The position numbers and the translations under genes are program-made. A stretch of 47,327 bases of DNA, from positions 1 through 47,327 of the forward strand of contig JAMXLF010000093.1 in NCBI GenBank assembly GCA_024281055.1. Reading direction: 5' to 3'. Positions 37,244 through 39,337 of the stretch are shown in pieces (the first letter of the stretch is position 1; each line of letters begins with the position of its first letter). The stretch comes from Geobacteraceae bacterium (GTDB lineage Bacteria > Desulfobacterota > Desulfuromonadia > Geobacterales > Geobacteraceae). The notes under the pieces are model-generated. The model did not search any database. It had not been told where the DNA came from and saw only the letters and a program-made list of their open reading frames with translations.

Positions 37244-37846
37244 TCACCCCTTGCCGATGAGGCGCACGAAATCCTCGTAGGGATGGAAGCCCACGAGCTT
37301 TTCGCCGTCGCAGATGTGCGTGGGAACAGCGGTCACTCCCAGCATTCTGGCCCGCTGCCAGTCGGCGTTCACGGCAGCGCTGAAGGTGTGCTTCGCAATA
37401 ACGGTACGCGCCTCGTACCCGGGGAGTCCGGCATCTTCGGCGATGCGAACCAGGTTCTCTATCCGGGCAATATTCCGATCCTCAACGAAATAGGCATGGT
37501 AGACGGTTCGCCGAAAGGACTCCCCCCGCCCATGGGTCTCGGCCCATTTGCCAAGCTCTTGGGCGTTGCGGGTGTTGAAGCTGCGAATCCGCAGAGACAT
37601 GGGAAGCCCTTCTTGCGCGGCAATATCCATGAGCCGGGCCTGCATTGCCGTTACATCGGCTTTGCTGCTGGCCAGAAGGTGAGTAAGCTCGATCCCTTCC
37701 TCCTGAATCTCCGGGTGGAGCGGAAAGACGCTCCAGCGCAGTGATATGCCGTATTCCCGTTGAAGACGATCAGTACGCACGGTACTAAGATAGCACCAGG
37801 GTCAGCCATAATCGAAGAAGACCTCGACGACGGGCGTATCAGCCAT
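37244..37846 (-). CDS. FrnE/DsbA-like thiol oxidoreductase, probable selenoprotein (UxxC)
   Basis: A 200-residue protein if the in-frame UGA at 37804-37802 is read as selenocysteine. Translation from ATG 37846, with GGAGGGGGG upstream, gives M-A-D-T-P-V-V-E-V-F-F-D-Y-G, then U15, then P-W-C-Y-L-S and on through R-L-Q-R-E-Y-G-I-S-L-R-W-S-V-F-P-L-H-P-E to G-K-G. FrnE-like proteins have C-P-W-C here, so UGA replaces the first catalytic cysteine exactly. Helical insert and cis-Pro loop (T-A-V-P-T-H) are intact. It is the last gene of the doxX-rhodanese-MDR-htrA operon. A seven-pair hairpin lies downstream of the UGA. A nonsense pseudogene is the alternative, made less likely by the second case in the same operon. 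Confidence 0.85.
37770..37788 (-). promoter_or_regulatory. Candidate bacterial SECIS hairpin in the FrnE-like gene
   Basis: In the mRNA the seven-pair stem UUAGUAC/GUACUGA (one U-G pair) closes a five-base loop CGUGC. The loop begins about 20 bases after the UGA and has G at its second position. Both features fit bacterial selenocysteine insertion elements, which sit 3' of the UGA inside the coding region. Confidence 0.6.
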
Positions 37847-37903
37847 TGTTCCCCCCTCCAGTGGTCTGTACAGGGAACTAACCGCACGGGACAGCGATAA
37901 TCG

Positions 37904-39337
37904 CTATTGCGCCTCCAGGGTAACGAAGAACGTCTGTCCTCCCCGCTTGAGAAGGAAGAGGACCGGTGCACCCTTCTCCACCTTCGCCATGACGGCGTTG
38001 AATTCCGCGAGGTTGTGCACCGGCTGCCGGTTTGCCTGGGTAATGACGTCGCCTGGCTGAATCCCCGCCTCTGCGGCGACGCTCCCCGGATCGACGCCCA
38101 CGACGACCACCCCGACCCGCTCCCTGATGCCGAGCATTTTCTGCCACTTGGGAGTGATGTCGTCCAGCTTCATACCGAAGCTCTGTACCGGCGCCTGGCT
38201 CTGGGCGGCCATTCGCTGCTCCGTCAGCTCCTCCACTTTCACCTTGAGATGCTCTTCCTTGCCGTTCCGGATGACGGCAACGTCGACGTCCTTCCCGACG
38301 GGGGTTTCGGCGACGATGCGCGGCAGATCGTTCGAGTTTTTGACATTCTTGCCGTTGAAAGCAACGATGATGTCGCCCTGCTTGATTCCCGCCCTGTCCG
38401 CCGGTCCGCCCTGGAAGACGTCGCTGACGAGGGCGCCCCGCGCCTCCTTCAGACCGAAGGACTTGGCGATGTCAGGGGTTACCAGCTGGATGGTCACCCC
38501 GATCCAGCCGCGCACCACTTTTCCCTTCTCCCGGAGCTGGGAAACTATCGATTTGGCCAGGCTGCTCGGGATGGCGAAGCCGAGCCCCTGGCCGCCGGAG
38601 ATAATCGCGCTGTTGATGCCGATCACCTCGCCCTTCAGGTTGACGAGCGGACCGCCGCTGTTCCCGGGATTGATCGGGGCGTCGGTCTGGAGAAAATTGT
38701 CATAGGGGCCGGAACCGAGCACTCTGCCGGTGGCGCTGATGATCCCCTGGGTCACGGTATGCTCGAGGCCGAAGGGGTTGCCGATGGCGAGGACCCAGTC
38801 GCCGACCCGCATCTTGTCGGAGTCCCCCAGTTCGATGACCGGCAGATTTTCGAACGTGGAGGCGATCTTGATAAGCGCCAGGTCGGTCTTAGGATCCCGC
38901 CCCACAACCTTGGCCTTGAATTCCCGCCCATCGGAAAGCTTCACCTTGATCTCTTCGGCCTTTTCGACCACGTGATTGTTGGTGATGATGAAACCGTCCC
39001 GGTCGATTATGAACCCGGAGCCGAGGCTCTGCTGCTTCATCTCCTGGTCGGGGACCTGACCCTGGCCGAAGAACTGCTTGAAGAAGTCGTCGGGAAGGCC
39101 CTCCTGGGGACCGAAGAAGTGCTGGAACGGCATCCCCGGCACGCGCACCGTGGTCGTCGTACTGATGTTGACCACGGCGGGCCGGACCTTCTCGGCAAGA
39201 TCCGCAAAGGACTGGGGGAAGCCGACGAACTCCGTTTTGCTTCTGCTCTCGCACCCGCCCTGGGTTGCCGTGGTCACGATAACAGACATCACGAGGAGAA
39301 GGATTTTACAAAAATCCATCAGTTTCCACCCGTTCAT
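37904..39337 (-). CDS. HtrA/DegP-family periplasmic serine protease with two PDZ domains
   Basis: A 477-residue protease-chaperone. The signal region ends near C29 (T-Q-G-G-C), which may be a weak lipobox. The chymotrypsin-like triad is H122 (N-N-H-V-V), D152 (T-D-L-A-L-I) and S227 (G-N-S-G-G-P-L). Two PDZ domains follow (about 275-365 and 380-475; G-A-L-V-S-D-V-F-Q-G-G-P-A-D-R-A-G and V-G-V-V-V-V-G-V-D-P-G-S-V-A-A-E-A-G). It clears misfolded envelope proteins. GGGAGG precedes ATG 39337. It sits between the MDR oxidoreductase and the FrnE-like gene, so the operon combines protein quality control with thiol redox functions. Confidence 0.96.
   Translation of the reverse strand: MNGWKLMDFCKILLLVMSVIVTTATQGGCESRSKTEFVGFPQSFADLAEKVRPAVVNISTTTTVRVPGMPFQHFFGPQEGLPDDFFKQFFGQGQVPDQEMKQQSLGSGFIIDRDGFIITNNHVVEKAEEIKVKLSDGREFKAKVVGRDPKTDLALIKIASTFENLPVIELGDSDKMRVGDWVLAIGNPFGLEHTVTQGIISATGRVLGSGPYDNFLQTDAPINPGNSGGPLVNLKGEVIGINSAIISGGQGLGFAIPSSLAKSIVSQLREKGKVVRGWIGVTIQLVTPDIAKSFGLKEARGALVSDVFQGGPADRAGIKQGDIIVAFNGKNVKNSNDLPRIVAETPVGKDVDVAVIRNGKEEHLKVKVEELTEQRMAAQSQAPVQSFGMKLDDITPKWQKMLGIRERVGVVVVGVDPGSVAAEAGIQPGDVITQANRQPVHNLAEFNAVMAKVEKGAPVLFLLKRGGQTFFVTLEAQ

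Follow-up and report, generated by a model that had tools for sequence, protein, structure and literature searches.

Does the UGA that interrupts a gene for a thiol-disulfide oxidoreductase in this Geobacteraceae genome end translation, or does it specify selenocysteine? The window (the whole stretch of DNA that was analyzed, 47,327 nucleotides) holds a frame that opens at the minus-strand ATG at 37846, reads MADTPVVEVFFDYG-UGA-PWCYLSTVRTDRL... and, after 200 residues, ends in a second UGA (37246-37244) as its stop. Direct reading of the active-site stretch gives FFDYG-U-PWC, with PWCYLS following the UGA. An earlier note on this DNA had described a UGA at the first catalytic cysteine of a FrnE/DsbA-like protein, preceded by a strong ribosome site, and the frame at 37846-37244 (minus strand) reads in just this way, with the GGAGG core of GGAGGGGGG 8 nt upstream of the ATG. 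The same note held that a standard gene call would begin past the active site, and the ORF listed mechanically for the frame under table 11 does so: it starts at GTG 37780, in the loop of a hairpin, and gives 178 aa from which the active site is missing. The features of the locus are listed below.

37244..37846, minus strand: predicted selenoprotein gene for a FrnE/DsbA-like thiol-disulfide oxidoreductase, 200 aa when read via the UGA (Pfam DSBA and structural model).
37802..37804, minus strand: in-frame UGA, predicted selenocysteine codon for residue 15, first position of UPWC; TGA stands here in 78 UPWC genes, this one included.
37793..37795, minus strand: TGC codon for C18, the second (resolving) active-site cysteine, invariant in a 47-protein alignment.
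37770..37788, minus strand: predicted bSECIS hairpin of 7 pairs with the 5-nt loop CGUGC (37781-37777), from covariation, synonymous constraint and recoding (p=0.004 for the window copy).
37851..37859, minus strand: ribosome-binding site GGAGGGGGG, read directly.
37322..37324, minus strand: codon for P175, which we take to be the cis-proline of the thioredoxin fold; P175 is invariant in 47 proteins.
37904..39337, minus strand: upstream neighbor, an HtrA/DegP-type serine protease with two PDZ matches (Pfam).

We hold with near certainty that the gene encodes a FrnE-subfamily oxidoreductase of the DsbA superfamily with a selenocysteine nucleophile (U-P-W-C), its UGA being decoded via SelB and a downstream bSECIS. 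In the established bacterial pathway, summarized in PMC13188914, a selenocysteine UGA is decoded by SelB, which carries Sec-tRNA-Sec and binds the hairpin. Here, SelB and Sec-tRNA-Sec would bind a hairpin lying 14-32 nt past the UGA, and selenocysteine would be inserted in place of termination. Judging from the fold and the motif, disulfides in substrates, or oxidised thiols, would be attacked by the selenolate of residue 15, and the resulting selenenyl-sulfide would be resolved by C18. For the window protein, we infer SelB binding, selenium in the protein, its location, the reductase or isomerase direction and any substrate. The selenoprotein reading put forward in the earlier note is favored by a Sec gene set, a conserved UGA, a covarying hairpin and synonymous constraint, the selenium itself being predicted.

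FrnE identity is supported by Pfam DSBA, by the PDB sequence match and by fold comparison. The complete FrnE-like domain that had been described after the UGA is present: Pfam DSBA (PF01323) matches residues 6-196 with 111 bits, and FrnE of Deinococcus radiodurans is the best PDB sequence match (E 2e-18). An AlphaFold2 model with an input alignment of 47 proteins (mean pLDDT 95.9, pTM 0.91) predicts an FrnE-type fold with high confidence, the first strand being reached from the N-terminus at residue 6; these 47 proteins come from the 97 references prepared alongside the tree described below. The top Foldseek match is D. radiodurans FrnE (query TM 0.91), followed by SCO1869 of Streptomyces coelicolor, and VIA-align superposes the model on D. 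radiodurans FrnE with a Z score of 26.7 and an rmsd of 1.9 over 200 residues. D. radiodurans FrnE (DR_0659; PDB IDs: 5cnw, 5cp1, 5xwh) thus shares the fold over 200 model residues and has PWC after its nucleophile, but it has C where the window protein has U, and its 260 residues include a C-terminal CX4C part. The window protein ends at residue 200, and a C-terminal CX4C motif is absent from it. According to PMC8945050, CX4C occurs in many FrnE members but not all; it is not required for the subfamily because FrnE of D. maricopensis and of S. roseofulvus lack it. The window protein carries the CP(W/F)C active site of the FrnE subfamily as UPWC, with Sec for the first Cys. The subfamily is predicted to be cytoplasmic, and the window protein is probably cytoplasmic as well.

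SCO1869 (PDB ID: 3gl5, chain of 239 residues), presumably a Cys protein, is the next structural relative with a Z score of 26.2 and 28% identity. Kappa glutathione transferases, YjbH and HCCA isomerases score lower than FrnE against the model (Z about 20-21); the kappa transferases and the HCCA isomerases have the DsbA-type fold in common with the window protein but use Ser and glutathione, not CxxC. A search of NCBIfam gave solely a C-terminal match to NF041057, below the cut-off (28.5 bits versus 190). Filing the protein under NF041057 was rejected on this account and because the 2026 review PMC13188914 has NF041057 as a DsbG-like family. Comparison of 61 relative loci gave no conserved gene-neighborhood partner, since the biggest recurring flanking group reached just 4 loci; a match to the HtrA/DegP-type neighbor flanks just one of the loci, L072, and lies there on the opposite strand.

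We read 102 loci, of which 101 have a readable motif: 78 UPWC (the window gene included), 11 UPFC, 2 UPYC, 2 CPWC and 8 CPFC. L082, whose active-site motif is missing, was left out of these counts. TGA occupies the catalytic position in the UPWC, UPFC and UPYC genes, versus Cys in 10. The earlier note had given C-P-W-C as the motif of relatives, which does not hold, close relatives being mostly UPWC; the alignment with Cys homologs that it proposed as a check does place the Cys of CPWC and CPFC proteins at the UGA of the window gene. A scan of a collection of genome contigs gave only five loci: two (L046, L047) that, judging by length, seem to repeat the contigs of G013 and G026, and three distant relatives with betaproteobacterial titles; none was counted.

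A seven-pair hairpin with G in its loop, about 20 bases after the UGA, had also been claimed, and this is exact: UUAGUAC-CGUGC-GUACUGA starts 13 nt after the UGA (span 14-32 nt), and its loop starts at 20 nt. Among 57 distinct sequences (columns 17-23 versus 29-35, with the UGA as 1-3), 96.7% of 399 cells are standard pairs, and six of the seven pairs have changed on both sides, the seventh being invariable. At the time of this alignment 61 motif-bearing loci had been fetched, and it comprises 57 of them (L043, L045, L078 and L080 were omitted); 40 later loci lie outside it. Shuffled controls scored as high in 0 of 500 draws on four of five measures and in 5 of 500 on the fifth; the shuffles do not keep relatedness, whereas a slid-register control does, and it left 15-48% paired. 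RNAalifold without a supplied structure gives exactly these seven pairs. A competing hairpin, GGUGCUA/UAGUACC, is best in naked RNA and was rejected because double changes are missing.

The bSECIS model published in PMC13188914, as given in the passage concerned, has 4-16 pairs, a loop of 3-9 nt with G in the first two loop positions, a spacing of 16-37 nt and an MFE of at most -7.5 kcal/mol; there the MFE value is a search cut-off, and some putative elements fail the model. The window hairpin has 7 pairs, a 5-nt loop with G and 20-nt spacing, and 77 of the 78 UPWC genes have a G at loop position one or two. In isolation the window hairpin has -5.8 kcal/mol; -7.5 is reached by 38 of the 78 UPWC copies, and the hairpin of L017 has -9.5. 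For a 45-51-nt stretch, whose best fold contains the window hairpin and a second one, the value is -9.1, and the passage leaves the stretch meant by the -7.5 rule unstated. The naked 51-nt window strand folds otherwise and no better than shuffles (z -0.5). When the 57 nt that follow the UGA were folded for each of the 78 genes, the optimal structure held between five and seven of the pairs in 41 genes and none in the other 37, which include the window gene. In the window copy, dropping 6, 9 or 12 nt directly behind the UGA, plausibly the part covered by the ribosome, makes the hairpin the best fold. Rfam, searched with positions 37500-38000 at E values up to 10, returned one chance-level match and no SECIS family.

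The energies raise the question of whether the window copy belongs to a former selenoprotein in decay, with UGA decoding no longer efficient. The difference between its hairpin and that of L017 would fit, as would the Gly that precedes its UGA, where Ile or Val is usual in relatives. All seven pairs are intact in the window copy, however, as is the ribosome-binding site, and the match to its nearest relatives (61-63% identity over nearly full length) is interrupted by one stop only, the UGA. We regard decay as very unlikely.

Further evidence for a functional hairpin comes from codon choice. When the window copy was recoded with the protein kept and codons drawn from the gene's own usage, the observed number of pairs stood at p 0.004. 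The same procedure reproduced the observed pairing in no more than 5% of draws for 66 of the 78 genes; 12 fail this 5% level. We then compared, in 75 of the 78 UPWC genes, how often same-residue sequence pairs share a codon with the expectation. Synonymous codon identity is above expectation by 0.38-0.67 at residues 20-24, and the mean excess is 0.39 at residues 20-26 versus 0.05 (sd 0.08) beyond residue 30. Among 7-codon windows, the top eight are confined to residues 15-28, and a smaller excess is found beside the UGA (0.24 at residue 14 and 0.31 at residue 16). The predicted hairpin is thus supported by compensatory changes together with synonymous constraint that peaks on the hairpin codons.

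The constraint bears on another explanation, that translation truly ends at the UGA, the locus being either a pseudogene or the source of a truncated protein from GTG 37780. The 178-aa ORF does appear in the mechanical ORF list, and broken or partial relatives exist (G096:C59, in two frames; G092:C36, partial; and G049:C2:257710-257841, a fragment with TAG). A true stop is nonetheless at odds with the synonymous constraint in the hairpin, with the same TGA in 78 UPWC genes, and with the residues on both sides of the UGA (F10, D12, Y13, P16, C18 and Y19), which are invariant or nearly so in the 47 proteins. We consider this explanation exceedingly improbable.

The earlier note had asked for selA, selB, selC and selD, and all are found in the same assembly (4.44 Mb in 103 contigs, 99.6% complete, 3.4% contamination). 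Two tRNA-Sec genes in it pass the Rfam cut-off, both with anticodon tca, and it further has one selA, two selB over the cut-off and one selD over the cut-off. This complement speaks against the UGA being read as Cys or Trp, through a variant code or leaky read-through, with the hairpin acting as a read-through stimulator unrelated to selenium. Cys is indeed what all 10 TGA-less homologs have at this position, but the window gene's own terminal stop is UGA, the hairpin matches the bSECIS geometry published in the cited passage, and the SelD match of the same genome (L013 1501-2421) also has one in-frame UGA, near its N-terminus. A Cys or Trp reading is in our judgment extremely unlikely, and selenocysteine is the reading that we retain.

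The two tRNA-Sec of this genome differ at 9 of 94 bases, mostly in the acceptor stem by eye (C38 (L123), C70 (L125), C89 (L124)), and its two SelB proteins are 74% identical; on C38, a tRNA-Sec lies directly upstream of selB. Two or more tRNA-Sec over the cut-off were also seen in G082, G084 (one contig), G005 and G046, so the duplication may be real rather than contamination. In the other direction, G086 has a TGA gene (L034) with an intact hairpin of the seven-pair type, and no tRNA-Sec, SelB or SelA over the cut-offs; it is a 96%-complete draft, and gene loss and incompleteness are therefore indistinguishable. Its genus mates G075, G085, G090 and G095 are likewise without tRNA-Sec over the cut-off and without SelA. 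No tRNA-Sec over the cut-off was found in G010, G013 and G031, where SelB is present, and SelA was not found in G010 and G016, where the TGA gene is present. Across 97 genomes, the TGA gene occurs in 28 of 88 with detected machinery versus 1 of 9 without, with no significant correlation (Fisher p 0.27). The tRNA-Sec survey of these 97 genomes used stricter filters, by which some weak matches were lost; the SelB search covered the window's own genome and 6 others, and 4 of the 15 genomes without tRNA-Sec over the cut-off were checked.

Every row at E <= 1e-45 was fetched and read, and the TGA is at the residue-15 codon wherever a row has one. At the order level, 31 of 33 rows have exactly one TGA (29 of 97 genomes, the window's own included); the two TGA-less rows are the Cys genes L043 and L078, the latter with a TAG near its end. 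At the phylum level, 49 of 51 rows have one TGA (49 of 395 genomes) and 2 have none. The two samples overlap, by at most six genomes with such rows, the window's own included. A sequencing or assembly error that turned TGC or TGT into TGA, for which the draft state of the assembly speaks and nothing else, is vanishingly improbable, and a base-call error is excluded because the same TGA recurs in dozens of genomes.

Selenoproteins of this kind have been classed under COG2761, which we take to be the FrnE family. The statement in the earlier note that selenocysteine-containing Dsb/FrnE-like proteins had been reported is borne out by the literature, where DsbA-like UxxC selenoproteins (COG2761) appear from the Sargasso Sea survey of 2005 onward (PMC1088965), with a predicted bacterial SECIS for the DsbA-like family in a figure legend of that survey. 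Later papers contain a 2006 tabulation of DsbA-like selenoproteins, in which three Geobacter species are without a DsbA-like entry (PMC1794560), a 2007 stop-codon screen that recovers a DsbA-like selenoprotein with an example from Desulfovibrio desulfuricans (PMC1914089), a 2016 list with a DsbA-like entry bearing the values 41 and 45 (PMC5029168), and further entries in lists of 2008 (PMC2398784), 2022 (PMC9312934) and 2026 (PMC13188914). No DsbA is named in the part of PMC12013277 (2025) consulted. Within the main-text portions on DsbA/FrnE selenoproteins that were searched, with supplements outside the search and one list holding the best 10 of 23, there was no description of the gene in the window's order. 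The published family resembles the window protein in having Sec at the first position of UxxC and, in later lists, PF01323, a likeness drawn from the descriptions in these papers and not from their sequences. The window gene is almost certainly a selenoprotein gene with a bSECIS, of a kind already in print since 2005. Recognizing such genes corrects annotation, as the mechanical ORF begins in the SECIS loop and loses the active site.

A tree of 98 proteins with the catalytic position masked (98 of 102 loci; L044, L081, L082 and L104 were omitted for length or motif) recovers one clade of 78 rows (98/99). It comprises all UPWC rows save the divergent L120, plus four Cys rows out of ten. Sec genes surround both L043 and L078 in the tree (forks 100/99 and 100/98), L102 and L103 join a Sec gene (99/96), and the Cys label requires 7 changes across the whole tree. 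L043 (G010:C59) and L078 (G031:C408) are CPWC paralogs, and both genomes also hold a Sec copy. Of the hairpin pairs, L043 retains all seven, L078 five, L102 five and L103 four, L102 and L103 having no stable fold. The hairpin of L043 is possibly a fossil SECIS; for other families, PMC1794560 describes a change from Sec to Cys after which a SECIS-like remnant stayed behind.

Sec is likely the ancestral state of the UPWC clade; it is not proven because the tree was rooted by midpoint only. On balance, we lean toward the view that a FrnE branch spanning the phylum (UPWC) began with Sec and gave rise to Cys forms two or more times; in one of these, L043, an intact fossil bSECIS would have stayed behind, and the genome of L043 keeps a Sec paralog. 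If true, the UPWC branch would be a case in which Sec is the default and Cys is derived. Going by the sequences, what appears mildly new is that in the UPWC clade Sec is the rule and the few Cys copies are nested inside it, one with an intact hairpin. Its 78 UPWC genes, the sharp limits of the constrained stretch and the Cys forms nested inside it make the clade a clean data set for asking what SelB requires of a bSECIS and why Sec is retained or lost.

One member of the clade, the UPWC gene L051 (G122:C6:707406-708005), comes from a genome of another family (f33) and groups inside the genes of the order (98/90), a candidate for horizontal transfer; two genomes of the same family as G122, namely G158 and G317, carry UPFC/CPFC copies that are divergent. 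A second TGA-bearing set of DsbA-family genes, with UPFC or UPYC (L107-L109, L112, L114-L119, L121, L122 and L080), is 25-34% identical to the window protein. Six or seven pairs are possible at the same position in 11 of these 13, with a different sequence, and in L080 a GCUGGC/GCCAGC complementarity is seen by eye instead.
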